This document shows, piece by piece, positions 1 to 13,863 of a DNA stretch of 13,863 nt. Under the pieces are notes generated by a model, which had not been told where the DNA came from, ran no database searches, and saw only the letters and a list, made by a program, of their open reading frames with translations. Both the position numbers and the translations under genes were made by a program. Position 1 is the first letter of the stretch, and each line of letters begins with the position of its first letter. The DNA comes from Oscillospiraceae bacterium (GTDB lineage: Bacteria; Bacillota_A; Clostridia; Oscillospirales; Oscillospiraceae): positions 1 through 13,863 of the forward strand of contig JAFQDR010000064.1 of NCBI GenBank assembly GCA_017415945.1, read 5' to 3'.

Positions 1-1
1 G

Positions 2-115
2 AAAAACGGCGATATATCCGGCAGATGTGCTGCTAAAATGCTGGGAGTTTCCCACACGGCATTCAGAAATTGGGCAATGGAAGATAACAGCGAAGAATGG
101 GCTGCAAATTTATAA
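2..115 (+). CDS. C-terminal 37 codons of a helix-turn-helix protein, possibly a site-specific recombinase (5' end outside window)
   Basis: An open frame enters from the left edge and stops at TAA 113-115. The visible peptide contains GRCAAKMLGVSHTAFRNWA, which has the spacing of a helix-turn-helix: Ala-Ala-x-x-Leu-Gly-Val-Ser in the first helix and turn, then a recognition helix ending in Trp-Ala. C-terminal HTH tails of this kind are common in serine resolvases and invertases (family knowledge), but also in phage-type and transposase-related DNA-binding proteins. With no catalytic domain visible, the recombinase reading is an inference, made more interesting by the inverted repeats just downstream. 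No terminator hairpin follows the stop codon, so read-through toward the kinase gene at 312 is possible. Confidence 0.45.
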   Translation, partial: KNGDISGRCAAKMLGVSHTAFRNWAMEDNSEEWAANL

Positions 116-139
116 TTTGTTGAGAAATTGTTAAAATTC

Positions 140-155
140 GTAGACTTTACTTTCC
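140..155 (+). repeat. Left arm of a perfect 16-bp inverted repeat (IR-L)
   Basis: GTAGACTTTACTTTCC is the exact reverse complement of GGAAAGTAAAGTCTAC at 258-273. The two arms enclose 102 bp that contain the minus-strand promoter. Bases outside the 16 bp do not continue the match. The arrangement resembles the ends of a short invertible DNA segment, although a pair of operator half-sites is an alternative. Confidence 0.8.
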
Positions 156-219
156 GCTGTGATTTTTATTCCGTGACATGCAAAGAAATACCAAAAATCA
201 CCTAAATTATACATAATAT

Positions 220-248
220 ATTATACCAACAATACTATCTAAAGTCAA
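220..248 (-). promoter_or_regulatory. Sigma-A-type promoter on the minus strand inside the inverted-repeat segment
   Basis: Reading the minus strand, TTGACT (248 to 243) is followed by exactly 17 bases and then the consensus TATAAT (225 to 220). This is the best promoter match I found in the gap between the upstream gene and the kinase at 312. It points leftward, antisense to the partial HTH gene, and no minus-strand gene is visible in the 140 bases it would transcribe. I found no comparable plus-strand promoter between 116 and 311. If the segment were flipped, the boxes would map to 165-170 and 188-193 and fire toward the kinase with a leader of about 110 nt. Orientation and function are inferred. 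Confidence 0.6.
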
Positions 249-257
249 GATTCAGGT

Positions 258-283
258 GGAAAGTAAAGTCTACTTTAGTTTCC
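258..283 (+). repeat. Right inverted-repeat arm (258-273) embedded in a 26-bp imperfect palindrome
   Basis: Positions 258-273 are the inverted copy of 140-155. In addition 258-283 is itself a near-perfect palindrome: 11 of 12 base pairs form between 258-269 and 272-283, with one G:G mismatch (263/278) and a two-base core CT at 270-271. A 26-bp site with 12-bp arms and a 2-bp core is the geometry of serine DNA-invertase crossover sites (hix/gix type, family knowledge). It could equally be a dimeric repressor operator. It lies 28 bp upstream of the start codon of the first kinase and would also fold into a hairpin in an mRNA leader. Confidence 0.7.
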
Positions 284-311
284 AGTCAGACCAGAATTAC
301 TGGAGTGCAGT

Positions 312-2015
312 ATGGAACTTTATGCAATAGATCAGTCAACAATTCTGAATAACAGATATGAAATTCTGTCACTTATTGGTACAGGAGGTTTTTCTATCAT
401 ATATAAAGCATATGATCATGAATTGAATTCCATTGTAGCAATCAAGGAATATTTTCCTAATAATATTGCAGAGCGGATTCCATACCATAAAGAAGTTTTA
501 ACGCGCAATCACGAATCCGAAGTACGATTTCGGCAGGGACTGCAGTCTTTCTGCGAGGAAGCACGCAGAATGGCTGAACTGAACGGTCTTCATAATACAG
601 TCAACGTGCTGGGAACCTTTGATGAAAACAACACGAGCTATATAGTTATGGAATTGCTGGAGGGGACTTCCCTCCTTGCTTATCTGAAGACTCTGCCTGA
701 TAACCGCTTTGCAGATGCGGATGATGCAAAACAAATAATCTATTCGGTGGCAGAAGCATTGCAGTATGCCCATTCAAAAAAGATTCTGCACAGAGATGTA
801 TCTCCGGATAATATCTTTCTGTGTAATGATGGAAAGGTCAAACTGATCGATTTCGGGGCTGCAAGAGAAATCACAGAAGATGGCGAATTATCTGTTGTTG
901 TAAAAACAGGCTGTACTCCTCCGGAACAATACCGAAAGAATGGAAAACAGGGACCTTGGACGGATCTGTATGCTCTTGGAGCAACATTTTACAGAATGTT
1001 GACCGGTATATATCCGGAAGCTGCACCGGATCGGGAGGAACATCATGAATGTCCCCCTCCTTCGGAAATAAATCCGGAAGTTCCGGAATATATCGACGCA
1101 TTGATCCTGCGCTGTCTGGCATACGATCATACGTTACGTATTGCAAAAGCATCTGAAGTAATGGATGTTCTGCACAGAGAAACAGTCATTCCGCTGCCGG
1201 GAGCAATTCAGGCGAAGAACAGACTTCTCAAGACGATTTCGTATGGTATACTTACGGCCTGTCTGATTCTTTTTGTGGTCATCAGTCTGATTGTCCTGAA
1301 GAAGTCAGAAACACTGTATACGATTCCTATTGATGCGTGTGATATCCGGATTGAAGTTCCAGTGAATTTTTCGTCGGAAAGCGGTTTGGCAGCAGTCAAG
1401 GCCGATTTTCAAACCATGTATGATCAGATTGGTATTGAGTTTATTACCGGCGGAACGGATGCCGGAGTTTCAGATGTGTTTGTTTATACAGAAGATGATG
1501 CGGAATGTGCCTGCCTCGAAGATATCCAAAAGGTAGACGAATCCGCAGATACTTATTATGCAGTCATTGCTTATGATACCGAATTGATCTATTGGAATGT
1601 CGAAAAAGCATTCCGCAATGGGATTGATATGAACAATATTCATTCTGCTGAGGACATTTTACCGGAGTATTATACAGGCAGTTATGAGGAGTTTCTGATC
1701 GATACCAATGGTTTATGTGCTTATCAGGGGAGTATTGATCTGTACAGAAATATCCAGCAGGAGCTTCCCGGGATGTATAAGATTTATCCGACAGAAACAG
1801 AAATGACCCCTGTTCGGTTTTCGGTAGCTTCGGGATTGGAGAAAAATCAGAAGAATGCCGCCATGCGGTTTTTACTGTACCTGATGAGTGAACGTGCGCA
1901 GGAAATTCTCTTCATCAATCATGAGGGAGTGATTCCCGCAGAAGGAAATCAGTATGATCATTTTTTTGAGGTGTACAGTGAGCTTGTATTTCTCGAACAT
2001 ACTGCAATGAAATAA
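312..2015 (+). CDS. Transmembrane Ser/Thr protein kinase with a solute-binding-protein-like ectodomain
   Basis: The protein has 567 residues; ATG 312 is preceded by GGAG at 302-305. The kinase domain spans about residues 16-290: Gly-rich loop GTGGFS (23-28, last Gly replaced by Ser), VAIK lysine K45, alpha-C glutamate near E82/E83, HRD at 160-162, N167 and DFG at 180-182. The catalytic loop reads HRDVSPDN, with Ser where most Ser/Thr kinases have Lys. The activation segment ends in TPPEQY and is followed by GPWTDLYALGA. A single membrane helix lies at about 308-329. The outer domain (about 333-560) resembles a type 1 ABC solute-binding protein: YYAVIAYDTELIYWN, then AAMRFLLYLMSERAQEIL and GVIPAEGNQY near the end, like the AxxFLxFLxSxxAQ...IPA region of sugar-binding proteins. 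Unlike the other two kinases it has no N-terminal zinc ribbon. It probably senses a ligand outside and phosphorylates cytosolic partners such as the FHA proteins downstream. Kinase assignment is firm; the ectodomain call is by pattern only. Confidence 0.93.
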   Translation: MELYAIDQSTILNNRYEILSLIGTGGFSIIYKAYDHELNSIVAIKEYFPNNIAERIPYHKEVLTRNHESEVRFRQGLQSFCEEARRMAELNGLHNTVNVLGTFDENNTSYIVMELLEGTSLLAYLKTLPDNRFADADDAKQIIYSVAEALQYAHSKKILHRDVSPDNIFLCNDGKVKLIDFGAAREITEDGELSVVVKTGCTPPEQYRKNGKQGPWTDLYALGATFYRMLTGIYPEAAPDREEHHECPPPSEINPEVPEYIDALILRCLAYDHTLRIAKASEVMDVLHRETVIPLPGAIQAKNRLLKTISYGILTACLILFVVISLIVLKKSETLYTIPIDACDIRIEVPVNFSSESGLAAVKADFQTMYDQIGIEFITGGTDAGVSDVFVYTEDDAECACLEDIQKVDESADTYYAVIAYDTELIYWNVEKAFRNGIDMNNIHSAEDILPEYYTGSYEEFLIDTNGLCAYQGSIDLYRNIQQELPGMYKIYPTETEMTPVRFSVASGLEKNQKNAAMRFLLYLMSERAQEILFINHEGVIPAEGNQYDHFFEVYSELVFLEHTAMK

Positions 2016-2045
2016 TTGAAATTAAGTATGTTTATGGGAGGTAAG

Positions 2046-2143
2046 TGTAATATTTAATCCTTGTAATGTAATATCAGCGTCTATCCATTATTAAGGCAAG
2101 AAAGTATAATAATATCAGAATAACAAATACATACACGAAAGGA
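2046..2143 (+). promoter_or_regulatory. Upstream regulatory module, copy 1 (ahead of the lipoprotein-kinase operon)
   Basis: TGTAATATTTAA (2046-2057), four bases, then TGTAATGT (2062-2069) recur with identical spacing at 8662-8685. Downstream similarity includes a TATAAT at 2105-2110, a tail resembling AAATACA..AC, and CGAAAGGA (2136-2143), which supplies the ribosome binding site. The -35 region opposite the TATAAT is poor (TATCCA at 17 bp), suggesting an activator-dependent promoter. A 9-bp direct repeat TAATATCAG occurs at 2069-2077 and 2110-2118. The distance from the first motif to the start codon is 106 bp here and 104 bp in the second copy. Confidence 0.5.
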
Positions 2144-2151
2144 AAACTATA

Positions 2152-3771
2152 ATGCGGCATTGTTTTCGTTTTTTAGTTGTTATTATGATTGGGTCATTGC
2201 TTGTCGGTTGTACAGACAATTTACCTGAGATGAATTTTTGGGATGAAATCAGTATTTGGGAAGATTTCAGCCTGACCGATAATAAGAATTCCTCTCAGGA
2301 AGATCGTTTTAATATTTTTGACTTTTTAAATAACAGGATAAGTAATATTGAAAAAAAAGAAGAGGATACATCATCACAGGATAATCTATCCTCCGGCAGC
2401 GATTTTATTGGAAAATTATTTGCGCTTTTAAGAAGAAACAATAATGAAGCTGTAACAAATACGACGGAAGATGAGGAGTCATTAATTGAAAGCGAGCGTG
2501 TTATCGAAGAAATATTAAATATTGAATCAAAAGTGGACAAGCTGTATGATGTTGAGGAAGCAACCGACTTTTCTGATGGAAGAGCATGGGTAAAAATGAG
2601 GAATTCTTCGAACAGCAGTATGTATTGGATTTGTATTGATGAATCAGGCGAAGCTGTTTTTCAATTTAAGGCACTTCCAAATGAAAATGTGGCAATAACA
2701 CAATATAAAAACGGATATTCGTATGTGATATATGATAGTGGTATCGTCTATGTTCTTGATAAGAATGGCAATGTAAAAAGTAAATATACACCAGAAGAAA
2801 ACGGCAACGTCCTTGCATATGGTGAAGGATATGTATTTACTTCTTTGAATGTATCAGACTTTGACAATAACTACGATGTTTACACTATATATAATGCTGA
2901 TGGTAAAGTTCTCTATGATTTTTCTGTATATATTGAAGGTAAGAAAACAACCGGTCAAGTAGGTGCAGTTAACTATTGTGGTGATGGTATCTTTGGGATA
3001 GGTATTCGTTCTGCGTGGACATGGCCTTCATGGTATTACTGCGCTGAAACAGATAAATTTATCGAGGACATTCAAGGTACTATTAACAATAGAAGCAGTG
3101 ATGGTTTTCTTTGCGTTGATATCCAATATCACGACGATGTAGGTTATAGAGGAAGTATTATATTATTAACATCAGAAGGAAGTGTTTCCACTGTACCTAT
3201 TGAAACTGATGGCTGGAATTGGTCGGCAGACATTAGCATAAATGAAAATTCTCTACTGCTGTATTGGCCGTTCGAACATGGCGAAATGACTCGTTATGAT
3301 ATCAAGAAGAATGTATTTATTTCTTTAGATGAATATTATTGCGAAAAAATAGATTGGGATAATTATAAGATAGATACTACGTTTGTGGACGAAAAGGTTG
3401 CATTACCCTTGACAGGTTCAGATGGAAGTCCTTACGTAGCATTATTTGACTTGAACTGGAATACGGTCATAGATCCTATAAAATGTGACAAACTAATTGG
3501 TTTGTCTGGAGACAGGCTTGTATTGACTCATACTCATGATCATGTTAGTGAATATATTGTTTATGATGATAATGGCAAGATAGTATTTGATTTATCTTCA
3601 ATTGGATATACAACTATGTCTGCTTATTCAGAAGGATTTGCAATTGTTGGAAATGGTAGAGATAGGAATGATAATGTTATAGGACATGATAGAAGATATA
3701 TTGATAAGAATGGGAATATTTTGTTTGATTATATTTTATTGAACGAAGATAAAACTATAGAATTTGATTAA
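2152..3771 (+). CDS. Secreted lipoprotein with WG/beta-propeller-like repeats
   Basis: The protein has 539 residues, starting at ATG 2152 after AAAGGA at 2138-2143. A short positively charged start and hydrophobic stretch (residues 5-18) end in the lipobox L17-V-G-C20, so the mature protein should be lipidated at Cys20 and held on the outer face of the membrane. Residues 21-135 are an acidic, low-complexity tether with a likely helical part around 107-135. From about residue 138 the chain has repeats of the type 'FSDGRAWVK...WICIDESGEAVFQF' and 'YSEGFAIV...RYIDKNGNILFDY' (492-526), typical of WG-repeat beta-propeller-like proteins, with intermediate units ending VLDKNGNVK, IYNADGKVL and VYDDNGKIV. 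No catalytic residues are recognised. The stop is only 16 bp before the giant kinase, so the two are probably co-transcribed, and the lipoprotein may be a partner or sensor for its ectodomain. The gene looks AT-richer than its neighbours (15 G+C of 60 at 3541-3600). Confidence 0.85.
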   Translation: MRHCFRFLVVIMIGSLLVGCTDNLPEMNFWDEISIWEDFSLTDNKNSSQEDRFNIFDFLNNRISNIEKKEEDTSSQDNLSSGSDFIGKLFALLRRNNNEAVTNTTEDEESLIESERVIEEILNIESKVDKLYDVEEATDFSDGRAWVKMRNSSNSSMYWICIDESGEAVFQFKALPNENVAITQYKNGYSYVIYDSGIVYVLDKNGNVKSKYTPEENGNVLAYGEGYVFTSLNVSDFDNNYDVYTIYNADGKVLYDFSVYIEGKKTTGQVGAVNYCGDGIFGIGIRSAWTWPSWYYCAETDKFIEDIQGTINNRSSDGFLCVDIQYHDDVGYRGSIILLTSEGSVSTVPIETDGWNWSADISINENSLLLYWPFEHGEMTRYDIKKNVFISLDEYYCEKIDWDNYKIDTTFVDEKVALPLTGSDGSPYVALFDLNWNTVIDPIKCDKLIGLSGDRLVLTHTHDHVSEYIVYDDNGKIVFDLSSIGYTTMSAYSEGFAIVGNGRDRNDNVIGHDRRYIDKNGNILFDYILLNEDKTIEFD

Positions 3772-3787
3772 TAAGGAGTTATAAATC

Positions 3788-6700
3788 ATGAAGTGCATGA
3801 ACTGTATGGAGGAAATATCCGACATACAACCTTGTCCGCATTGCGGTTACAGGTATGGAACAGAGCCGGAAAATAAGCAGTATCTTATCCCGGGAACAAA
3901 ACTGGGCGGTATTTATACGGTAGGTACCGTGATCGGTGCCGGCGGCTTCGGTGTTACTTATATTGGATGGGATGAATCATTGAATCGCAAGGTAGCGATC
4001 AAAGAATACTTCCCCAGCAGCCTTTCTACCCGTATTCCCGGTCAGACTGCTATTTCCGCATTCAGCGGTGAAAAGCAACAGATATTCAATCACGGAAAAG
4101 AACGCTTTATAGAAGAAGCGCGTTTGCTGATGCAGTTCACCGGCGAGGAAGGAATCGTTTCCGTATACAATGTTCTGGAAGCCAATGGGACTGTGTATAT
4201 GGTGATGGAATATGTAGAAGGGATCACACTCAAGCAGAACATTGAGCAGTTCGGTACCATACCGGAACAACAGCTTCTCGGATTTATCGTTCCGATGCTA
4301 CTTTCCCTGAAGTATGTACATAATGCAGGCTTTACACACCGTGATATATCTCCGGATAACATTATGTGTCAGCCGGACGGCAATGTAAAACTGCTGGACT
4401 TCGGTGCTGCCAGATATTCGGTGATGGAAGAATCGAAAAGTCTGTCTGTTATTGTAAAACAGGGATTCACACCGATTGAACAGTATCAGTCTCATGGAAA
4501 ACAGGGACCCTGGACTGACCTGTATGCCGTTGGTGCGACCATGTACAAGGCACTGACCGGGATTACACCAGATGAATCCCTGGAACGAATGGCGAAAGAA
4601 ACATTGAAAAAGCCTTCTCAGTGCGGTGCAGAGGTATCGGAGAATACAGAAAATGCCATTATGGCAGCTCTGAATATCCGGGCTGAGCACAGACCGCAGG
4701 ATGTAGATGAATTTCTTGCGATTCTTACAGGCGAGCAGAAAGGCGGGCTGATCGGCGGTAAACGTCCTAAGAAAGGAATTATCGTTGCTGTGGCCGCTGC
4801 GCTGGCAGTTGCTCTTGGCGGGGGTGCCTTGCTCTGGAGTTTCTTGAAACCGCAGATACTTACACCTCCAGATGAGATATCCCCGCCTCCTGGTATAAAT
4901 GTTCCGGATGCCATTAACAAAACGGATACAGAGGCCGAAGTGTTATTTACTGAGAATCAACTGAATATGATTGTTACCGGCGGTAAGCTGTATGATGCTG
5001 AAATGATCGAACAGGGATACATCGCCGAAAATCTTGTAGTTGAACAGGAACCGTTTGCCGGAACATTGGTTGATCCTGAAAGTACAGTCGGAGTCGTGCT
5101 GAGCAAGGGTAAGGAAAAAGAATATGTTCCTTCCGTAACGGACAAACTCGTTGAAAATGCATTACACGATTTTGAAAAATACGGTTTCGACGATACCTTT
5201 GAGATCGAACTGGAAGAAGAATACAGTGACACCAACATGGCTGGTACGGTTATCTCCCAGAGCCTGCCTGAAGATGCAGCAGTAGACTTTGACGGCAAGA
5301 TCACGCTGACTATTTCTCTCGGACGAAAAGACCCGCTGGCTTCCGTAACAACTGTAACAGTAGATGACTACACAGGAAAAGACTTTGATACGCTGAAACA
5401 GGAACTCCTGAAGGATAATATCTATCTTGTCAAGTCTGCTTCTATATATTCCAATGAATATCCTTACGGAGCGATCATTTCGCAGGCTCCGGAAAACGGC
5501 AGTGAGATTCAGAGCGGCGGTGCCGTATATGTAATCACCAGCCTTGGTTACGAAATGGCTCGTGTGCCGGATGTCCGGTATCTGAAGCTGGATGAAGCGA
5601 AAACAGCGCTCATGGAAAGCGGACTCAGCTGGAAGATCAAGTATGTCGTTGATCCGGAAGTTTCGTATGGTCTTGTAGCGGAACAGAAGACGGCTCCCGG
5701 CATTAAGACTCCTTTCGGAACAGAGATCGAACTGCTTGTCAGCGCGGAAACAGAAGACAGTGAAAACAAGAATTCCGTAGCAATTGAAATCACTCCGGAT
5801 GTTTTTGAGCTTTCTGTAAACGAAACAGAATCGTTGATCTGCTCCTATACAGGAGATGGAGATATCATCTGGGCAATCTCAAATCCCTATATTGCTGAAG
5901 TAGACAACAATGGTGTTGTGACGGCAAAGAACTTTGGTTCGACCACGATTTCTGCTGCCGTTGACGGAAATATAGCGACCTCTATGGTAACTGTTACCGA
6001 TGAATCGATCATTACGGAAGTCGATGATTATGTGCTTGTGATCGGCGAAACGGTTTCTCTTGCTTCTGCAGTTCCGGAATCCATTCTTGACGATGTCGTA
6101 TGGCGGTCTTCCTATCCTACAGTTGCTGCTGTCGATGAAAAAGGAACTGTAACAGCGGTTGGTGAGGGATATACAAGCATTTCTGCGACCTATAAGGAAC
6201 GTACAACGGAATGTGGAATTATCGTCAATAAAAAAGTCGAGTATATAAAAATCCTCAAGGATGTTCTGCTCAGTAATCTTGAAACAGCAAAACAGGCTCT
6301 GAAATCCAATAATATTGAATATGAGGTTGTGGATGAATACCACGATACCATTGTTCAGGGCAATGTCACGAAAATTAAGTATACCGGTCACAGTGATAAT
6401 GACAGTTTCTATATTGCCGAAGAATCCAAAGTGACTCTGCTGCACAGTTTGGGGAAAAATACGGTACAGTCGATTACAGTAAAGACACTTCCTCAGAAAA
6501 CTACTTATCTGCTTGGTGAAAAACCGGATTATAAGGGCATGGTTATCACCGCAAAGTATAAAGATGGAACAACAAAGGATGTAAGCAAAGGTTATTCCGC
6601 TTCATCGGCCGCTTTGGAAACATTGGGAACTCAAAAGATAACGATCACCTATGAGAAACAAAGTACCACTATTGATTTTAAGGTTGATCCGATTGAAGTT

Positions 6701-8653
6701 TCCTCTGTAAGTGTAAATCCTGAAACTCTCACTCTCATTGCAGGAGAAACGAAAAAATTATCTGCCGGTATTGCTCCTTCCAATGCTACGGATAAAAAAG
6801 TTTCTGTGACCAGCAGTGACAGTTCTGTTGTAAAAGCGGAAGGGCTTACACTGACTGCATTTAATGCCGGTACCGCAAAGATTACTGTGAAAGCACACAA
6901 CGGAAAATCCGCTGTATGTACTGTTACGGTAGTTCTTCCGGAGGTTTCCTCCGTTTCCCTGTCCTCTTCGGACATGTATCTGACTGCCGGGGAATCCAGA
7001 AAATTGACAGCAGCTGTTCTTCCGCAGAATGCCGGTAATAAAGCGGTTACATGGACTTCCTCAAATACCAATGTCGCATCGGTTGATAGTTCCGGAAATG
7101 TAACTGCAATAGCAACGGGAAATGCAGTAATTACAGTAAAAACAGGAAATGGAAAAACTGCCTCCTGTACAGTGTATGTGTCTGTTCCTGTAACCGGCGT
7201 GACAATCCCAGCCCAGATTTCTATGAAATCCGGTGAGACACAACAGCTGAAAGCCACCGTTTCCCCTGCAAATGCCAGCGATCAAACCCTGACCTGGACA
7301 TCCTCTAATGCAAAAGCTGCGACCGTGGATACTTCCGGCAAGGTTACGGCAATTGAATCCGGTACGGCTGTGATTACAGTGAAAACGAATAACGGAAAAA
7401 CGGCAGCCTGCACAGTGACTGTTACTACACCGTTAGAAAGCATTTCCCTTCCGGAAGATGAATTTACAGGTCAGGTAGGAAAAACATATTCGATTACTCC
7501 AACATTTGTTCCCAGCAATGCGGACGACCGTTCCTTTACTGTGAAGGTCAGTGATTCGACTGTTCTTTCCGTCAAGGATAATAAGTTTACTGCATTGAAA
7601 GCAGGAACAGCCACCCTCACGGTAACAACGCCCAACGGCAAATCGGATTCCTGCAAGGTGACAATCCTTGGCGAAGCTGAACTTACGTTGATAAAGAAGC
7701 CGTCTAAAACGACTTATTATATCGGCGATTCTCTCGACACAAGCGGATTGAAGCTCGGATATACGGATACCGCAGGTAATTATACCGAACTGACAAAGGG
7801 ATTCACAATTTCCGGTGGAGATACCTCCAGCAGCGGAACACAGACCGTAAAAGTCAAGTATAATGATCTTTCCGTGAAATTTGATATTACCGTAAAAACA
7901 CCCAGTATTACGATCAATAAACTTCCGATTGAAGGTACTGTATTGCTGGCTGTTCAGACGGAGCCGGAAGATCAGAAGTTTGATATATGGAGTTCAGATC
8001 CGGATGTGTTTGTAGTTGCTTCTTATCTGGGGGCATCGCATATTGTACAGCCTACTGGGGAAGGAACCGCAGAAGCCTGTGCCTCAATGGTATATAACGG
8101 TATTGAATATACGGATTATGTTTCTATAACGTCGATTGCTCAGAATTATGACTTTGAATTATGGGCTGATGATTGTGGCGACGGTGAATGGGTATGTGGT
8201 ATTGAAACAAATATTCCCGGATTCGATATCAGAAATGTCAAGTGGTCAACCAATGCGGCAGAACACTGGACAGATGATAATGGTTGGCTTAGAGTCTGGA
8301 GTAAAGAAACAATCAATGTAACGGCATCGTATGTACATAATGGAAGAGAGTATTCAGATAACTGCACTATTAAGATAGTAGTAAAAGAATACAGTTTCCA
8401 GATTGTTCGCAGTACGAACAGCATTCCCGGAGATAGAGGTATCTATTACATAACAACAGATATTCCTGATTTTGATGCAGGAAATGTTGAGTGGAGTATT
8501 GTTGCCGATGGTTGGGGTGGCTGGGTTGAAGAAGACTATTATGTCGTCGATGAGAACAGTATGGAATCTGGAGATTCCTATATTGTTTATGCCACCTATA
8601 CTTATCAGGGTGCCACCGGTACTTCGTCCTTTACATTCTCGCTGCGTTCATAA
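3788..8653 (+). CDS. Giant transmembrane Ser/Thr kinase: zinc ribbon, kinase, TM helix, PASTA and Big domains
   Basis: The protein has 1621 residues; ATG 3788 follows AAGGAG at 3773-3778. Order: Cys4 zinc ribbon (C3, C6, C16, C19); kinase about 40-315 with GAGGFG at 50-55, K72, E109/E110, HRD 184-186, N191, DFG 204-206; membrane helix about 330-352; Pro-rich exit (360-372). Outside lie at least three PASTA-like units (about 445-515, 520-590, 590-655), two Big2-type Ig-like units (664-740, 741-815), a further PASTA-like unit (820-890), a Big3-like unit (893-968), four tandem Big2 units (969-1295), another Big3-like unit (1296-1370) and three related C-terminal units (1372-1621). PASTA kinases such as PrkC/Stk1 normally have three to five PASTA units, about 600-700 residues in all, and detect muropeptides or lipid II; this ectodomain is several times longer and probably reaches through or beyond the wall. 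The catalytic loop HRDISPDN shares the Lys-to-Ser change with the other kinases. No sortase signal is visible, as expected for a type with an internal membrane anchor. Confidence 0.95.
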   Translation: MKCMNCMEEISDIQPCPHCGYRYGTEPENKQYLIPGTKLGGIYTVGTVIGAGGFGVTYIGWDESLNRKVAIKEYFPSSLSTRIPGQTAISAFSGEKQQIFNHGKERFIEEARLLMQFTGEEGIVSVYNVLEANGTVYMVMEYVEGITLKQNIEQFGTIPEQQLLGFIVPMLLSLKYVHNAGFTHRDISPDNIMCQPDGNVKLLDFGAARYSVMEESKSLSVIVKQGFTPIEQYQSHGKQGPWTDLYAVGATMYKALTGITPDESLERMAKETLKKPSQCGAEVSENTENAIMAALNIRAEHRPQDVDEFLAILTGEQKGGLIGGKRPKKGIIVAVAAALAVALGGGALLWSFLKPQILTPPDEISPPPGINVPDAINKTDTEAEVLFTENQLNMIVTGGKLYDAEMIEQGYIAENLVVEQEPFAGTLVDPESTVGVVLSKGKEKEYVPSVTDKLVENALHDFEKYGFDDTFEIELEEEYSDTNMAGTVISQSLPEDAAVDFDGKITLTISLGRKDPLASVTTVTVDDYTGKDFDTLKQELLKDNIYLVKSASIYSNEYPYGAIISQAPENGSEIQSGGAVYVITSLGYEMARVPDVRYLKLDEAKTALMESGLSWKIKYVVDPEVSYGLVAEQKTAPGIKTPFGTEIELLVSAETEDSENKNSVAIEITPDVFELSVNETESLICSYTGDGDIIWAISNPYIAEVDNNGVVTAKNFGSTTISAAVDGNIATSMVTVTDESIITEVDDYVLVIGETVSLASAVPESILDDVVWRSSYPTVAAVDEKGTVTAVGEGYTSISATYKERTTECGIIVNKKVEYIKILKDVLLSNLETAKQALKSNNIEYEVVDEYHDTIVQGNVTKIKYTGHSDNDSFYIAEESKVTLLHSLGKNTVQSITVKTLPQKTTYLLGEKPDYKGMVITAKYKDGTTKDVSKGYSASSAALETLGTQKITITYEKQSTTIDFKVDPIEVSSVSVNPETLTLIAGETKKLSAGIAPSNATDKKVSVTSSDSSVVKAEGLTLTAFNAGTAKITVKAHNGKSAVCTVTVVLPEVSSVSLSSSDMYLTAGESRKLTAAVLPQNAGNKAVTWTSSNTNVASVDSSGNVTAIATGNAVITVKTGNGKTASCTVYVSVPVTGVTIPAQISMKSGETQQLKATVSPANASDQTLTWTSSNAKAATVDTSGKVTAIESGTAVITVKTNNGKTAACTVTVTTPLESISLPEDEFTGQVGKTYSITPTFVPSNADDRSFTVKVSDSTVLSVKDNKFTALKAGTATLTVTTPNGKSDSCKVTILGEAELTLIKKPSKTTYYIGDSLDTSGLKLGYTDTAGNYTELTKGFTISGGDTSSSGTQTVKVKYNDLSVKFDITVKTPSITINKLPIEGTVLLAVQTEPEDQKFDIWSSDPDVFVVASYLGASHIVQPTGEGTAEACASMVYNGIEYTDYVSITSIAQNYDFELWADDCGDGEWVCGIETNIPGFDIRNVKWSTNAAEHWTDDNGWLRVWSKETINVTASYVHNGREYSDNCTIKIVVKEYSFQIVRSTNSIPGDRGIYYITTDIPDFDAGNVEWSIVADGWGGWVEEDYYVVDENSMESGDSYIVYATYTYQGATGTSSFTFSLRS
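5120..5752 (+). repeat. PASTA-like tandem units within the giant kinase (residues 445-655)
   Basis: Three consecutive units share the PASTA pattern: VP-x-V start, a helix rich in Ala/Leu, then GTVISQSLPEDA, GAIISQAPENGS or GLVAEQKTAPGI, and a closing strand ending in S-x-G or a variant of it. A region just before (about 387-442) looks like a more divergent unit, and a further one occurs at residues 820-890 after two Ig-like units. PASTA domains bind peptidoglycan fragments in PrkC-type kinases (family knowledge). Confidence 0.8.
6689..7672 (+). repeat. Four tandem Big2 (bacterial Ig-like) domains in the giant kinase (residues 968-1295)
   Basis: Each unit of about 82 residues shows a start such as VSSVSV, then GETKKLSAGIAPSNA-type, VTWTSSN-type and GTAKITVKAHNGKSAVCTVTV-type segments. 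The copies are similar in protein but clearly diverged in DNA, so this is an old duplication rather than a recently expanding repeat. Each repeat ends with a single Cys in the CTVTV-type strand. Confidence 0.85.
7901..8650 (+). repeat. Three related C-terminal ectodomain units of the giant kinase (residues 1372-1621)
   Basis: The last 250 residues contain three units with a shared pattern. Each has a strand with a conserved Trp (FDIWSSDPD, VKWSTNAAE, VEWSIVADG) and a late strand (YNGIEYTDYVSIT, HNGREYSDNCTIK, YQGATGTSSFTFS). Units two and three also share IPGFDIRNVKW / IPDFDAGNVEW. They look Ig-like but are not typical Big2 units. They form the tip of the ectodomain, so they are the best candidates for the ligand-binding head. 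Confidence 0.6.
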
Positions 8654-8765: not shown

Positions 8766-9842
8766 ATGTTTGACCGTATTAAAGCAAAAGAAAAATCCAA
8801 AACCTTACTTAGAACGCGGAGTATTGCAGATGCTGTCGGGATGGCTGTAATCCTGACTACTCTTGCGGCATCTGCAATGTTATCAATCATTCCTTTGATT
8901 GGAATTGTAGCAATAGGTTTCTCTCTCCTGTTTCAGGCTGGTATGAACCGGGTAGCTCTGCGTATAAACCGCGGAGATAAGAATGTTCGTGTGCTTGACA
9001 TTATTTTTGCGGGCGATAGACTTGGCAGATATATAGCAATCACGCTGTGGCAGGCATTGTTCCTCTTCCTGTGGACACTTCCCTCTGTTGCTGTGATTAT
9101 CATTGCGGTTGTGATGTTAATCGCTGGAGGCGGCAGCAATGTTGCATCTGCATTTGCTGTGATTTTTATCATTGCTGCATGTATCTGGAGTATCTACATT
9201 ACACTCAATAAAATTTGCCAGTATTACTACGCTTACTGTGTAGCCGAAGACAATCGTGAACTGGCCGCATTGGACTGTATCCGCGAAAGCAGTAACCTCA
9301 TGGTTGACCATAAATGGGAACTGTTCGTAACCATGCTTTCCTTCTTGGGATGGGATATTATTGCAGCTACCTTTATTGGTAATGTGTTCGTTAGTCCCTA
9401 TAAATACCTGACTTATACTTCCATCTATGAACAGCTAATCGGTAATTTCAAGCCTGTCAGCCGCAATCATATGCAGTGGCTACATAATGTTCCGAAGCCG
9501 GAACCGGCAAATGAGGATATTGATCCTCGTGAACGGATTGTAGAGATCCTTTCCGGTGAATTTGCAGGAGCAAAACTGCCTGTAAATGCCGGTGAAGATA
9601 TTACAATCGGCAGAGATCCCAAACGTGCAAATGTTGTGACATCTCCTGCTAATACATCTATTTCCGGTCTGCACTGTAGAATCCGTTATGATGAACAGAA
9701 TGGCAAGTACATCGTGGTTGACCATTCTTCCAACGGTACTTATCTGAACAACGAAAAACTTATGCAGGAAAAAAGCACTTATGCAGCAAAAGGCTCTCTT
9801 GTGAAACTCGCTGACGGTGCAATGATTCTCAGACTTTCTTAA
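8766..9842 (+). CDS. DUF975 integral membrane protein with a C-terminal cytoplasmic FHA domain
   Basis: The protein has 358 residues; ATG 8766 follows AAAGGA at 8751-8756. The first 230 residues are a polytopic membrane region, with hydrophobic stretches near 22-57, 88-119, 129-149 and 186-210. It has the DUF975 signature: QYYYAYCVAEDN (152-163), then CIRESSNLMVDHKWELF and LSFLGWDII, ending with a PYKYLTYTSIYEQL segment. After a linker (about 230-255), residues 256-358 form an FHA phosphothreonine-binding domain: I281-G-R-D284, SISGLHCR with S300 and H303, and D319-HSSNGTY with N323 and G324. All FHA contact residues are present, so it should bind a phosphothreonine protein. Being downstream of three kinase-type functions, it probably recruits a phosphorylated partner or a kinase to the membrane. 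The function of DUF975 is not known to me. The next gene starts 19 bp after the stop. Confidence 0.88.
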   Translation: MFDRIKAKEKSKTLLRTRSIADAVGMAVILTTLAASAMLSIIPLIGIVAIGFSLLFQAGMNRVALRINRGDKNVRVLDIIFAGDRLGRYIAITLWQALFLFLWTLPSVAVIIIAVVMLIAGGGSNVASAFAVIFIIAACIWSIYITLNKICQYYYAYCVAEDNRELAALDCIRESSNLMVDHKWELFVTMLSFLGWDIIAATFIGNVFVSPYKYLTYTSIYEQLIGNFKPVSRNHMQWLHNVPKPEPANEDIDPRERIVEILSGEFAGAKLPVNAGEDITIGRDPKRANVVTSPANTSISGLHCRIRYDEQNGKYIVVDHSSNGTYLNNEKLMQEKSTYAAKGSLVKLADGAMILRLS

Positions 9843-9861: not shown

Positions 9862-10404
9862 ATGGCTAACCTTACCAGATGTGCAAACGGACACTTTTAT
9901 GACGCAGATAAAAATCGCTCCTGCCCTTATTGTAATCAGGCAACGGCAGGTGGAGCTACTACACCGCTGAACCCTCCGCAGCCTCAGCCCCCGGTACGTC
10001 CTCCCGTGACTCCTGAAGATACCGGTGAAACCGTTGGTTTCTATAATGAAATGACAACCAAGCCCGTTGTCGGCTGGCTTGTATCCATTGAAGGTACCAC
10101 TGCCGGTAAGGACTTCCGTCTCTGCAGCGGCAGAAACTATATTGGACGCGGTAAGGACATGGATATCGTTCTGGAAGGTGATAATAAGGTCTCCCGGAAT
10201 AAGCACGCCATCGTTCTCTTTGATCCCAGATCGCAGAAGACGCTGTGTCAGGCAGGCGAATCCAGAGAACTGTTCTACCTGAATGACAATGTAGTCACCG
10301 GAACGGTTGAACTGAAACAGGGTGATGTCATTACAATCGGTGACACGCAGCTGATGTTTGTTCCTTTCTGTGGTGACCTGCATACCTGGAACACGGCGGA
10401 ATAA
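9862..10404 (+). CDS. Zinc-ribbon FHA phosphothreonine-binding protein
   Basis: A soluble 180-residue protein. The N-terminus has a zinc-ribbon-like set C7, C21 and C24 with H11 as a possible fourth ligand. A Pro-rich linker follows (37-52), then a short acidic segment DTGETVGFY (53-61). The FHA domain covers about 70-175: IGRG at 94-97, SRNKH with S111 and H115, and a divergent ligand loop RELFYLNDNVV in place of the usual SxNGT. It ends VPFCGDLHTW, a tail I associate with a Clostridia-type FHA family. The ETVG threonine (T57) sits where GarA/OdhI-type regulators carry their regulatory phosphothreonine ahead of the FHA domain, so this may be a kinase substrate that switches by intramolecular binding (inference). 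It is 19 bp from the DUF975-FHA gene and probably in the same operon, which ends at the terminator 12 bp downstream. Confidence 0.9.
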   Translation: MANLTRCANGHFYDADKNRSCPYCNQATAGGATTPLNPPQPQPPVRPPVTPEDTGETVGFYNEMTTKPVVGWLVSIEGTTAGKDFRLCSGRNYIGRGKDMDIVLEGDNKVSRNKHAIVLFDPRSQKTLCQAGESRELFYLNDNVVTGTVELKQGDVITIGDTQLMFVPFCGDLHTWNTAE

Positions 10405-10415
10405 ATAACATTGCG

Positions 10416-10460
10416 GCAGCAGGAGAGGTATGGATTCATTCTCTCTTGCTGCTCTTTTTT
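10416..10460 (+). terminator. Intrinsic terminator, possibly leaky or an attenuator
   Basis: GCAGCAGGAGAG (10416-10427) pairs with CTCTCTTGCTGC (10441-10452), a 12-bp stem with one G:T wobble and a 13-base loop, followed by TCTTTTTT (10453-10460). The next gene's ribosome binding site begins at 10461, the base after the T-run, so no promoter fits between this terminator and the LytTR gene. Confidence 0.85.
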
Positions 10461-10466
10461 GGGAGG
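10461..10466 (+). promoter_or_regulatory. Ribosome binding site that fixes the GTG start of the LytTR gene
   Basis: GGGAGG at 10461-10466 is 7 bases from GTG 10474. The longer open frame beginning at TTG 10411 would run through the terminator stem and has no ribosome binding site, so it is not used. Confidence 0.85.
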
Positions 10467-10473
10467 ATTTCTC

Positions 10474-11190
10474 GTGAATATTCTGATATGTTCACCTGTA
10501 CAGGGAGAGACATCATTCTTGTATGAGCACTTGCAGACGTTTTTTGAGGGACGTGGTATTGAACCGATTATTTTGTCTTTCCCGGATATTACCCTCATGA
10601 CAGAATATCTGTCGGTATCTCCGGATATACCGGATGCACTGTTTTTATCGTTTCCTGTTATCAATATGCAGATTCTGGATATGGTGCAGCAGTTTGCGGA
10701 AGGTATGCCGGACACACATATTGTTTTGATCGGTGATTCTCCTGTGGATGTAGAGCGGCTGTTCTCTATGGGGGTATTTTATTTCTTCTATCCCAACATA
10801 ACGCCGGAACATTTTCATTTTCTGGAACACAGAATGGCGAGAGCATGGTTCACGGAAATGGAAAAATACTTTATTCTGGAGAGTAAGAAGAATACGCTCA
10901 GGATTGCTTATTCCGATATTCTGTATGTTATGAGTGACAAACGAAAAGCAATCATTTACCAGCCGAATGGCAGGACGGATTCTCTGTACTGCAAGCTGGA
11001 TGAAATGGAACAGCAGCTTGATGATCGGTTTATCCGGTGTCATCAGAGCTATCTGATCAATGTACAGTATATCCGCGGAATCGATGTGGATGGATTTTTA
11101 ATGATCGACGATATCTTTATACCAATCAGTCAGAAGAAATACTGGGCATCCAAACGCCGGTACATACAATATATCAAGGAACAGGGGTGA
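10474..11190 (+). CDS. LytTR-family DNA-binding regulator with a degenerate receiver-like domain
   Basis: 238 residues from GTG. Residues 1-120 have the length and strand pattern of a response-regulator receiver (MNILICS, DALFLSF, THIVLIGDS, GVFYFFYPN), but the phosphorylation residues are gone. The usual acidic pair after strand 1 is Ser-Pro (S7-P8), the phospho-acceptor Asp after strand 3 is S59, the Ser/Thr after strand 4 is replaced in the IGDS segment, and the conserved Lys after strand 5 is Tyr (FFYPN). Residues 132-235 are a complete LytTR DNA-binding domain: DILYVMSDKRKAII (148-161), FIRCHQSYLINVQYI (186-200) and IPISQKKYW (216-224). It probably acts as a transcription regulator whose input is not His-Asp phosphotransfer; protein contact or Ser/Thr phosphorylation are options. 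The FHA gene follows after 4 bp. It heads the third transcription block, directly behind the terminator. Confidence 0.88.
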   Translation: MNILICSPVQGETSFLYEHLQTFFEGRGIEPIILSFPDITLMTEYLSVSPDIPDALFLSFPVINMQILDMVQQFAEGMPDTHIVLIGDSPVDVERLFSMGVFYFFYPNITPEHFHFLEHRMARAWFTEMEKYFILESKKNTLRIAYSDILYVMSDKRKAIIYQPNGRTDSLYCKLDEMEQQLDDRFIRCHQSYLINVQYIRGIDVDGFLMIDDIFIPISQKKYWASKRRYIQYIKEQG

Positions 11191-11194
11191 CGGC

Positions 11195-11596
11195 ATGAAA
11201 TATAGAAAAAACAAAAATGCACCGGATGAGATCATGATGACCATGAATACGACCGCTGCTTATGGAATGTCACCCTTCATCCGCTGTCTGGCCGGTGAAT
11301 ATGCCGGATATGATATTCCTGTGCTATCAACGGGTATCCTGATCGGAAGGGATACTTCTGCCTGTCACCTGATTTTCGGCAATACACCCGATGTCAGCAG
11401 ATACCACTGCAGAGTCAGCTACAGCAGCAAAACCGGATATTTTGTGATAACAGATCTGAACTCATTGAATGGAGTATACACTGAAAACGGTCAGCGGATT
11501 GCGGCAGGAGAAAAGCTTGTGCTTGGCCCGGGACAGCGTTTCAAGCTGTGTGGGGATCAGATCATTTTTGAAACCATGCTGCGGCAAACAGAATGA
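11195..11596 (+). CDS. Small FHA-domain protein
   Basis: 133 residues, ATG 11195, with AGGGG at 11183-11187 inside the end of the LytTR gene. A basic, Met/Thr-rich leader (1-26) is followed by an FHA domain over about 28-128: LIGRD (49-53), SRYHCRV with S68 and H71, and D87-LNSLNGVY with N92 and G93. The usual SxNGT is SLNGV, a mild variant. With almost nothing else in the protein, it is an adapter that should bind a phosphothreonine partner. T19/T20 in the leader are candidate kinase targets by analogy with GarA/OdhI. It lies between the regulator and the phosphatase with gaps of 4 and 12 bp, so co-expression is very likely. Confidence 0.88.
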   Translation: MKYRKNKNAPDEIMMTMNTTAAYGMSPFIRCLAGEYAGYDIPVLSTGILIGRDTSACHLIFGNTPDVSRYHCRVSYSSKTGYFVITDLNSLNGVYTENGQRIAAGEKLVLGPGQRFKLCGDQIIFETMLRQTE

Positions 11597-11608: not shown

Positions 11609-12811
11609 ATGAGAAATATTAGAAAGAAAAGATGTATAAGCTGTCTGCTGTTCCATTCTGTTAAGCTGCAGGAATGTCCCTATTGCGGCTACAGGACCGA
11701 CAGTGGTTTCATACAACCTTATCATGATGCGCTTCCGCTTTGCTCCGTAGTCGCTCACCTGCGGATCGGACGGGCAGTACAAACCGACAGAAACAGAATT
11801 ACTTACATAGGCATAGATACCGTTAAAAATAAGAGAATTCTGATAGATGAATTTTTTCCATACGGTTATGTTTATCGTCAGCAGGATGAATCTGTTCTTG
11901 CTGCGGATTCTTTGTATGCGGATATTGTCGAACAGGAGAAACTGGAATTTATAAAGAAAACCAAACAGGCGGTATCCGGTAATGGAACCGTTTACCGATA
12001 TCATCGTTTCAGACAAAAAAGAACTTTGAAAAAAGAAAAGAATTCGTCTCCGGATAATATCGCTCTCCGCAGCATTGTAGGAAGCCGTGCCAATCAGGAG
12101 GATTCAGCGGATTTCTGTAGGACCAAGCAAGGAATATGCGCCGTACTTTGTGATGGGATGGGTGGTATCAGAGGTGGTGAGACAGCAAGTTCGGAATGTG
12201 TGCGGATCATGCTGGAAACCTCGGATACTGTACAGCATTGTGATGAGGGCATTCTCCCTGCTGTACTGCAGCGTCAGGCAATCAAAGCGGATCAGTATAT
12301 TTCATCCTTACAGGATATGGAAGAACGGCGTCTGCAATGCGGTACCACACTGCTGTATGCCGTAATACGAAAAGACAGTATGTATTTTGTTTCTGCAGGG
12401 GACAGTCATATTTATCTGATCCGTAATGCCACAATACAGTTACTGACAGAGGAACATAATTATCTTGCGGATTTGATGCAGAAAGTAGAAAATGGTGAAA
12501 TGGAGTATGAAGATGCTGTGAGCCATCCCAAACGGGAAGCATTGACAAGTTACATCGGGATAGGCAATCTTCCGAGACTCCATGTTCTTTCCGTACCGAT
12601 TCCTCTGCAGGAAGGAGATCATATCCTTCTGTGTTCGGACGGGTTGTATCGTGCGCTCAGCGATGAGGATATATTGCAGATTATTACGGTAAATCCATCT
12701 GCTGAAGCAACTTCCGACGCACTGATTCAAGCTGTGGAAGAACGGAAGCTGCCGAAACAGGATAATACCACTTTGATACTATATAAACACACCGGAAGGA
12801 AAAGAAAATGA
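11609..12811 (+). CDS. PP2C-type Ser/Thr phosphatase with N-terminal zinc ribbon and vestigial kinase N-lobe
   Basis: 400 residues, ATG 11609 after CGGAG at 11597-11601. Residues 9-26 hold a Cys4 zinc ribbon (C9, C12, C23, C26). Residues about 45-133 align by eye with the N-lobe of the neighbouring kinases: IGRAVQTDRNRITYIGID against a Gly-loop region, ILIDEFFP against VAIKEYFP with the catalytic Lys replaced by D80, and LEFIKKTKQAV against the alpha-C segment. The Gly loop has lost its glycines and no C-lobe follows, so it cannot be an active kinase. Residues about 152-393 are a PP2C phosphatase with metal-binding motifs intact: RANQED (D165), CDGMGG (D182), GTTL, GDSH (262-267), LLCSDGL (D344) and QDNTT (D385). 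It should dephosphorylate Ser/Thr targets of the local kinases. The stop overlaps the next start as ATGA, so translation is probably coupled. Confidence 0.92.
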   Translation: MRNIRKKRCISCLLFHSVKLQECPYCGYRTDSGFIQPYHDALPLCSVVAHLRIGRAVQTDRNRITYIGIDTVKNKRILIDEFFPYGYVYRQQDESVLAADSLYADIVEQEKLEFIKKTKQAVSGNGTVYRYHRFRQKRTLKKEKNSSPDNIALRSIVGSRANQEDSADFCRTKQGICAVLCDGMGGIRGGETASSECVRIMLETSDTVQHCDEGILPAVLQRQAIKADQYISSLQDMEERRLQCGTTLLYAVIRKDSMYFVSAGDSHIYLIRNATIQLLTEEHNYLADLMQKVENGEMEYEDAVSHPKREALTSYIGIGNLPRLHVLSVPIPLQEGDHILLCSDGLYRALSDEDILQIITVNPSAEATSDALIQAVEERKLPKQDNTTLILYKHTGRKRK

Positions 12812-13863
12812 TTTGCTATAAATGTATGCGGGAATACTCCGGGCAATATTGTCCGCATTGCGGATTCAATCAGGAAACATACGAACCGGTCCCGACTGCT
12901 CTGATGCCGATGACTGTTCTTCATAATCAGTATATTATCGGAGCGGTACTCGGAAAAGGTGGATTTGGAATTACATATACGGGGTATGATAATCTGAATT
13001 ACAGAAAAGTTGCTGTGAAGGAGTTTTATCCCTCCTCTGTGGTGTACCGTGATGGGAGTCAGACAACAGAAATCACAGTTCCGTCCAATATGAAACAGAT
13101 TTACGAGAACGGTGTGAAAAAATTCTACAATGAAGCTGTTACATTGTCCAAACTGCAGGATATTCCTGCCATTGTCGATATATATGATTTTTTCTATGAA
13201 AACAATACTGCCTATATTGTTATGGAGTTTATTGACGGAACAGCAGTCGATCGGATTGTTTTGAATCAGGGTGGGTTGGATGTTGACATTACGCTGACAA
13301 TCTATTATCCTATCATACAGGCTTTGAAGAAAGTCCATGACGCCGGAATTCTGCATCGGGATATTTCACCGAGCAATGTGATGCTTGATGACAAATTCAG
13401 GGCACGGCTGATTGACTTTGGTTCATCAAGAGCTTATTCCCATGAAATGTCTACCGACCTTACTGTAATTCTGAAAAAAGGATTCGCACCGATAGAACAA
13501 TATTCCCGGAAAGGTAAGCATGGACCGGCTGAAGATGTATATGCGATCTGCGCTTCCATGTACTATACAATGACAGGAAAAGTTCCGCCTGCTGCACCGG
13601 ATCGGCGTGTCTTTGATACATTACAGCCAATCCATAATTATTCCACTGATATTCCGGCTAATATTGAAAGCATCATTATGAAGGGATTGTCCGTGCAGGC
13701 AGAGGATAGATATCCGGATATGGCAGCATTGGGGAAAGCTATCGACATGGCTGTGAGCGGGAAACAGGAACATTCTGTCGGAAAGCATACACATTCAAAA
13801 GAGGAAGCTGAACAGAACGGTAAAAAACGGAAGAATAAAAAGAGTACAGGGAATAATACAACA
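12808..13863 (+). CDS. Zinc-ribbon Ser/Thr protein kinase, 3' end outside window
   Basis: 352 codons are visible with no stop. ATG 12808 overlaps the phosphatase stop and follows GGAAGGA at 12794-12800. The N-terminus is a Cys4 zinc ribbon (C3, C6, C15, C18). The kinase domain spans about 40-316: LGKGGFG (48-54), VAVK with K71, E109 in alpha-C, HRD at 183-185, N190, DFG at 203-205, and APIEQY (227-232). The catalytic loop is HRDISPSN, again with Ser for Lys. Of the three kinases it has the most canonical Gly loop. After the domain comes a hydrophilic segment ending in a strongly basic run (about 339-345). In the giant kinase a basic stretch just precedes the membrane helix, so a helix and ectodomain may follow beyond the window. 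It is the closest full relative of the kinase-like remnant in the phosphatase next door (compare its VVYRDGSQ with YVYRQQDE). Confidence 0.93.
   Translation, partial: MICYKCMREYSGQYCPHCGFNQETYEPVPTALMPMTVLHNQYIIGAVLGKGGFGITYTGYDNLNYRKVAVKEFYPSSVVYRDGSQTTEITVPSNMKQIYENGVKKFYNEAVTLSKLQDIPAIVDIYDFFYENNTAYIVMEFIDGTAVDRIVLNQGGLDVDITLTIYYPIIQALKKVHDAGILHRDISPSNVMLDDKFRARLIDFGSSRAYSHEMSTDLTVILKKGFAPIEQYSRKGKHGPAEDVYAICASMYYTMTGKVPPAAPDRRVFDTLQPIHNYSTDIPANIESIIMKGLSVQAEDRYPDMAALGKAIDMAVSGKQEHSVGKHTHSKEEAEQNGKKRKNKKSTGNNTT

Follow-up and report, generated by a model that had tools for sequence, protein, structure and literature searches.

The proposed switch region and the kinase genes

The DNA analysed is a stretch of 13,863 nt, called here the window. 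It begins within a recombinase gene, continues with an inverted repeat enclosing a promoter-like sequence, and then carries signalling genes on the plus strand. Its features are as follows.

2-115, plus strand: 3' end of a predicted small serine recombinase gene (last 37 codons and the stop), with a C-terminal helix-turn-helix-like tail
109-137, plus strand: weak promoter-like site TTTATA-N17-TAAAAT with TG (9/12), outside the invertible segment and aimed at the kinase
130-155, no strand: predicted left recombination site, from palindrome score and site comparison (outer half 130-141, diverged; core AG 142-143; inner half 144-155)
140-155, plus strand: left arm of a perfect 16-bp inverted repeat, from the repeat search
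142-271, no strand: predicted invertible segment, from one core to the other, with a core distance of 128 bp (12.2 helical turns)
220-248, minus strand: sigma-70-type promoter TTGACT-N17-TATAAT with TG before the -10, pointing away from the kinase (OFF)
258-273, minus strand: right arm of the inverted repeat, from the repeat search
258-283, no strand: predicted right recombination site, 22/26 palindromic, core CT 270-271
302-305, plus strand: GGAG, likely ribosome-binding site of the kinase, by sequence reading
312-2015, plus strand: Ser/Thr (Hanks-type) kinase, the gene proposed to be switched (Pkinase E 5.9e-39)
2152-3771, plus strand: lipoprotein-like protein with a weak, below-cutoff WG-repeat profile match
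3788-8653, plus strand: 1,621-aa kinase with PASTA and bacterial Ig-like domains (domain match)
8766-9842, plus strand: DUF975 protein with an FHA domain (domain match)
9862-10404, plus strand: FHA protein (domain match)
10411-11190, plus strand: LytTR-type DNA-binding regulator (domain match)
11195-11596, plus strand: FHA protein (domain match)
11609-12811, plus strand: PP2C-type phosphatase (domain match)
12808-13863, plus strand: third Ser/Thr kinase, cut by the window end (domain match)

By reading, the first kinase has one transmembrane stretch and an external part, and its reading frame is intact. PADLOC defence-system matches in the operon were to kinase-domain models, in three of ten proteins.

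The original prediction had seen in the upstream gene a tail of the sort found in recombinases, and this is confirmed by its relatives. A search with the tail returned eight proteins (six of 206 aa, one of 211 aa, and one of 121 aa) with 94-97% identity across the matching stretch, and all eight carry the Resolvase domain PF00239. The 37-residue tail alone matched no Pfam family above its cutoff, and PHROG and PDB searches with it gave no convincing match, so that the gene's place among PF00239 small serine recombinases (~200 aa) comes through near-identical relatives, the window itself holding 37 residues. The resolvase catalytic domain that had been proposed as a check was found in the proteins matching the tail; in the full-length relative P0123 the Resolvase match (E 5.3e-30) makes the adjacent recombinase one of the serine type. 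The closest solved sequence to P0123 is Sin (E 1.5e-29); gamma-delta resolvase and two chains called DNA-invertase, which we take to be Gin, are also among the nearest solved ones. Against the Mpi master invertase family (NCBIfam NF009949) P0123 scored 56.9 bits, the cutoff being 272. Judging by these relatives, the cut-off upstream gene of the window is a small serine recombinase.

An inverted-repeat search of window positions 1-600 recovered the predicted perfect 16-bp repeat, with arms (140-155 and 258-273) that are 100% complementary and a 102-nt interior. Both sites are inverted within positions 1-600 rather than directly repeated as in Tn3/Sin systems, and the window has the trait of an inverton, inverted repeats around a promoter ahead of a gene. 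As anticipated, the right arm belongs to a 26-bp near-palindrome with a 2-bp core: positions 258-283 match their own reverse complement at 22 of 26 nucleotides, the highest value among the 13,838 positions of the window. The left site was rightly expected to be less palindromic, with 10 of 26 nucleotides matching. Its outer half agrees with that of the right site at only 5 of 12 positions, while the inner halves and cores are identical.

Since the left site is the least palindromic among 20 loci compared, it is possible that the window holds a former switch now locked OFF, with a decayed left site and a recombinase that no longer inverts the segment. Outer halves match equally poorly, however (5 or 6 of 12), in the related loci L118, L218, L210, and L213, and the identical inner halves and cores of the window, together with the intact kinase frame, also speak against a locked state, which we consider improbable.

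Could a chance repeat enclose a chance promoter? The region is A+T-rich, which raises the number of promoter-like matches. Still, a 16-bp inverted repeat within range occurred in none of 300 Markov-simulated windows and in none of 20,000 simulated 311-nt regions, and the layout recurs in relatives (see below). We reject pure chance on these two grounds and give it a negligible probability.

The minus-strand promoter lies where the original prediction had placed it, with TTGACT starting at 248, a spacer of 17 nt, and TATAAT ending at 220, and it points away from the kinase at 312. It is the sole match of at least 11/12 (spacer 16-18) in the window. When the segment is turned over in silico, the promoter comes to lie at 165-193 on the plus strand and faces the kinase with a leader of ~110 nt, again as predicted. 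The claim that no comparable plus-strand promoter is visible between 116 and 311 missed the 9/12 site at 109-137, which starts just before that interval. Sites of this quality are frequent by chance, as six are found in 700 nt against a shuffle mean of 2.3 (sd 1.7); this one may provide basal kinase expression. The further claim that the minus-strand promoter has nothing to express did not hold, because the 3' end of the recombinase gene (stop at 113-115) lies in its path and would be read antisense. The stretch from the recombinase stop to the kinase start showed no terminator-like site.

Recurrence of the layout beside related recombinases

Recombinase relatives were gathered from viral contigs, plasmids, phages, and genomes from the class to which the Oscillospiraceae assembly G001 belongs; in that class, 25 of 196 genomes had a recombinase match at E ≤ 1e-50. 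The hosts of the relatives include Clostridia genomes, viral contigs, and plasmids. Downstream of the relatives we often found a shared layout comprised of paired ~26-bp sites, often a promoter, and then a co-directional gene. An inverted repeat of at least 13 bp within 330 nt past the recombinase stop was present in 21 of 90 loci, compared to 7 of 754 control windows; the 90 loci include the window, three of the 21 represent one place, and L183 and L189 look like close hairpins. In a further set (132 loci, of which 5 were unusable, leaving 127, and 11 duplicates were dropped, leaving 116) a repeat of at least 12 bp was found in 28 of 116 loci and in 1 of 222 controls. The proposed order of recombinase, site, promoter, site, and gene therefore recurs far above control windows, although an exact downstream repeat at these thresholds is absent in 69 of the 90 and 88 of the 116 recombinase loci.

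Comparison of 20 site pairs (12 genome loci, seven others, and the window) upheld the guessed site geometry of 26 bp with a 2-bp core. Most sites are centred on GT-NN-AC. The core dinucleotides vary among the loci and agree within the pair in all 20, an agreement that is partly built in, as the exact arms contain the core. A promoter of at least 10/12 lies inside the segment in 10 of 19 loci of the first set and 10 of 24 of the further set; the shuffle means were 1.6 and 1.6, and the observed numbers were reached by 0 of 500 and 0 of 300 shuffled sets. For promoter and next-ORF counts in the further set, 24 of the 28 repeat loci were used. The next ORF is co-directional at 19 of 20 first-set loci, with no ORF at the remaining one, and among the further 24 loci it is co-directional at 17, opposite at four, and absent at three, both being plain counts with no control for co-direction. 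In the first set, 15 of the 19 ORFs start within 130 nt of the repeat and the others 255-1,126 nt away.

The downstream products, as assigned by Pfam, are diverse. They include VWA/SpaA or Ig-like surface proteins (L208, L219), an SLH protein (L217), cohesin and dockerin proteins (L118, L153), MBOAT acyltransferases (L210, L213), a condensation/AMP-binding enzyme (L122), and an isochorismatase-like enzyme (L214). In L212 the segment is followed by a PP2C phosphatase and then Tad-like secretion genes, and the congener L223 matches it through the switch. In both congeneric genomes (L212 6578-7531, and L223) the promoter faces the PP2C/Tad-like genes.

A weak tail match (E 4) led to the Enterococcus faecalis plasmid pGTC3. 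Its 200-aa recombinase is 57% identical to P0123 in the alignment, its right site is very like that of the window (GGAAATAAAAGTCTACTTTCTTTTCC in comparison with GGAAAGTAAAGTCTACTTTAGTTTCC), and the site pair comes with an 11/12 promoter pointing at an Rrf2 regulator. This locus stands outside the 21 repeat loci, as its repeat is mismatched (85% over 27 nt).

Of the 19 switch-labelled rows in a tree of 80 recombinases, 18 share with P0123 a group of 51 members (support 91/83). The switch label requires 14 changes on the tree, compared to a shuffled mean of 17.2, with 11 of 500 shuffles as low; hence either the presence of the switch or its detection is patchy.

Several other observations were made at these loci. 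P0123-like recombinases (E ≤ 1e-50) are present in 25 of 42 genomes from the G436 genus, with up to four copies per genome, and the cassette looks multi-copy there. By sequence reading, the left site in L210 (998-1130) and L216 (1112-1259) lies within a hairpin followed by a T-run, and in some relatives it may double as the terminator of the recombinase gene. L109 contains a second, more distant recombinase stretch (939-1232, ~38% to P0123) downstream of the switch. Inverted repeats are also seen upstream of the recombinase in L116 (2368-2383 and 2469-2484), L129 (1801-1976), and L130 (2696-2871).

Much of the kinase operon of the window is also present in G001. That genome has no close relatives of P0123 at E ≤ 1e-50, and ahead of its kinase there is no comparable repeat, just an 11-bp A+T-only repeat and a hairpin; by reading, the strand of the kinase itself carries an extended -10 promoter. 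The kinase relative L002 has no P0123-type recombinase nearby, and its sequence reads as having an extended -10 promoter in the direction of the kinase. A switchless kinase relative with a promoter on its own strand fits the view of the window as OFF. Among kinase loci at large, mostly of distant relatives, a repeat of at least 13 bp lies upstream in 1 of 77, that one in a repetitive stretch, and a P0123-like recombinase is near the kinase in 1 of 80, ~8 kb away. A general link between such kinase operons and switches was rejected on these two counts. Since the G001 kinase has neither recombinase nor repeat, and kinase loci at large are similar, the switch, as far as can be told from these comparisons, travels with the recombinase and not with the kinase family.

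Two further features of G001 concern gene content. It has no place for the WG-repeat-like gene that separates kinases 1 and 2 in the window (2152-3771), and the ORFs of these two kinases overlap there (L220 1-5381). After its kinase genes (L220 11581-14879) it encodes a second PP2C, a leucine-rich-repeat protein, and a radical SAM/SPASM protein.

Reversed segments, promoter orientation and site spacing

The comparison of orientation across assemblies that the original prediction had proposed was run on relatives, and two groups show a reversed segment beside a collinear recombinase. In total, 217 downstream regions were compared, yielding 120 same-strand and 32 reverse pairs, some of the best 30 reverse pairs being symmetric or short; none of the pairs involved the window. 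Eleven pairs were followed further, all of them comparisons between species and not of one strain in two states.

The first group centres on L243 and L244, from the genomes of two species. They are collinear through the recombinase (90.8%), after which 161 nt are reversed at 72.7%; over the inner 105 nt the inverted alignment scores 37 and the direct one -13, with a shuffled maximum of 1. Reverse alignment to L244 is also seen for L241, L242, L245, and L265. In L244 the best promoter-like site faces downstream, and in L241, L242, L243, L245, and L265 it faces the recombinase, all these sites being weak (in L243 and L244 8-9/12 before the TG bonus, the scoring adding one point for TG). Further downstream L243 and L244 are unrelated, and the pair therefore compares the cassette rather than one locus. 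In the second group, the middle part of the viral contig L109 is reversed relative to L251 (score 25 inverted, -14 direct) and to L254 (30 inverted, -9 direct). Both pairs are collinear at the recombinase and again beyond the reversed part, with 68.9% over 1,102 nt in L251 and 77.9% over 750 nt in L254, where L109 has ~485 nt extra. No clear promoter is seen in these segments. The pairs L222/L223 and L119/L121 are in the same orientation; the Tad-side flank is alike in L222 and L223.

The reversed segments bear on whether the paired sites might serve only for autoregulation of the recombinase or as binding sites of a mobile element, with no inversion. The nearest solved relative is the resolvase Sin and relatives are found on plasmids and viral contigs, as such a role would suggest, but the sites are inverted and not direct repeats, and reversed segments do occur in relatives. 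On the latter ground a purely operator role of the sites was rejected, and we regard it as highly improbable.

DNA searches at the genus level gave no reversed copy; counting the query genomes, matches were obtained in 1 of 3, 2 of 4, and 2 of 5 genomes. Another such search matched 24 of 42 genomes, mostly within the recombinase. The 16-mer of the repeat was found in 0 of 395 genomes of G001's family and once each in 11 viral-contig stretches, never as a pair. A scan of viral contigs for the full site or site pair yielded nothing, and phage and plasmid DNA searches with window positions 1-2200 gave no match. Thirteen of 391 genomes contain the site within three mismatches, one of them (G432) as an inverted pair. 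As a control pattern, the site read backward, matched 37 genomes, more than the 13 of the real site, single sites prove nothing.

Where one promoter of at least 10/12 is clearly better, it faces the recombinase rather than the gene at a ratio of 7:2 in the first set and 8:1 in the further set, one tie in each set not being counted. Together, 15 of 18 face the recombinase (two-sided p 0.0075; 0.004 without the window and L223). Because the better promoter mostly faces the recombinase, the assemblies, as read from promoter-like sequences, mostly show the OFF state. The same excess would suit a reading in which the present state of an inverting segment is itself functional, with antisense RNA against the recombinase lowering the rate of switching and the kinase expressed by read-through, which no terminator-like site would stop, or from the site at 109-137. 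However, sites of the latter type are common by chance, an excess of OFF among assemblies requires no antisense role, and the kinase relative L002 has, by reading, its own promoter. We consider a functional antisense state rather unlikely.

The distances between paired cores are phased with the DNA helix. They span 84-168 bp across loci and lie near 8, 9, 11, 12, 13, 14, 15, and 16 turns. In the first set, phasing at 10.5 bp had R 0.69 (n=19, p 1.3e-4). This set was picked by eye from the 90-locus scan: L183 and L189 (close hairpins with no GT-NN-AC core), L124 and L185 (11-bp repeats), L121 (a near copy of L119), and L171 and L176 (the same place as L199, read as L214) were left out, and L207 (11 bp) and L108 (12 bp) stayed in. 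For L108 the register was assigned manually; R was 0.67 without L108 and 0.64 with L108 as computed. The test was then written down before its use on the further loci, most of which were fetched afterwards and some before. Further loci with palindromic sites gave R 0.78 (n=22, p 1.4e-6), and all 28 further repeat loci R 0.69 (p 1.6e-6). The palindrome threshold of 28 left 22 of the 28 loci, and thresholds of 0, 28, 32, and 36 gave R 0.69-0.82. Without the four loci seen before the test was fixed (L223, L230, L236, L240), R was 0.75 (n=18, p 3.6e-5), and without the most sampled genus and L223 it was 0.69 (n=13, p 0.002). The rows are mutually related, which makes all these p values too small by an unknown amount. 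Over all 41 distances the best period is 10.45 bp, and none of 20,000 jittered sets reached the observed value. Distances of 150 and 155 are off-phase, and 134 and 139 less so. We read the phasing as a sign that the loop between the sites is short and stiff and that both would need to lie on one face of it.

Interpretation and relation to known systems

We think it likely that positions 130-283 constitute a recombinase-linked invertible promoter, assembled in the OFF state, that controls the kinase/FHA/PP2C/LytTR operon. The small serine recombinase encoded upstream would bind the two ~26-bp sites, cut at the 2-bp cores (142-143 and 270-271), and turn the segment over. At present the promoter would point back into the recombinase gene, with the kinase operon off or basal; once inverted, it would promote transcription of the kinase/FHA/LytTR/PP2C operon, giving a leader of ~110 nt. 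Inversion at the window locus, activity of the promoter, transcription of the operon as a single transcript, and population splitting are each inferred from these features. The interpretation put forward in the original prediction is supported at the level of sequence, its tested predictions being positive, and the window very probably holds a real, functional switch, a variant of a type already known.

Surface structures are the best-known targets of phase switches. Hin-type sites are 26 bp long with a 2-bp core, resolvases work on direct repeats and use accessory sites, and RecV is a tyrosine recombinase. The Hin-type invertases (Salmonella hin, phage gin) share serine chemistry and two-site inversion with the mechanism proposed here; Hin requires a Fis-bound 65-bp enhancer (PMC3798978), whereas the 84-168 bp between cores in the present family would leave little room for one. 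Mpi of Bacteroides fragilis, like the window, combines a small serine recombinase with invertible promoters, and it serves seven capsule promoters (PMC4747536); unlike Mpi, the recombinase of the window adjoins its own site pair. Switches of Clostridioides difficile (flagellar, pdcB/pdcC, and cmrRST) are also from Clostridia and place invertible promoters on regulatory or signalling genes (PMC11868660 and PMC7446863), and the flagellar one is inverted by RecV (PMC7446863), while the window has a serine-type enzyme whose gene adjoins the proposed switch. Group 139 of the hCom2 community invertons, likewise from Clostridia, is linked to a tyrosine-type recombinase, in contrast to the serine type here, and the word 'serine' has no occurrences in the main text (PMC11892184). 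Of the Sin/Tn3-type resolvases, Sin is the solved sequence closest to P0123, but the sites of the window are inverted. Searches of open-access papers by title, opening of the abstract, or passages turned up no account of this phased recombinase-linked family or of an inversion-controlled Hanks-kinase operon, and novelty is provisional.

A broader reading is offered more tentatively, and we would sooner doubt it than rely on it: the loci may represent an undescribed, widespread, Clostridia-centred class of cassettes, each comprised of one small serine recombinase and one very closely spaced site pair (8-16 turns) fixed on the helix, that have moved ahead of many unrelated operons. In the window, such a cassette would place the entire kinase/FHA/LytTR/phosphatase signalling network under stochastic on/off control, and antisense transcription into the recombinase while OFF would act as intrinsic feedback.

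For metagenome analysts, the place to look is directly downstream of P0123-type recombinases. The family provides a compact unit of recombinase and sites that can be studied, and its phasing leads to a sharp prediction on how sites only 84-168 bp apart can be brought together. If the proposed switch is real, turning a signalling operon with several kinases on and off would divide a clonal population by regulatory state.
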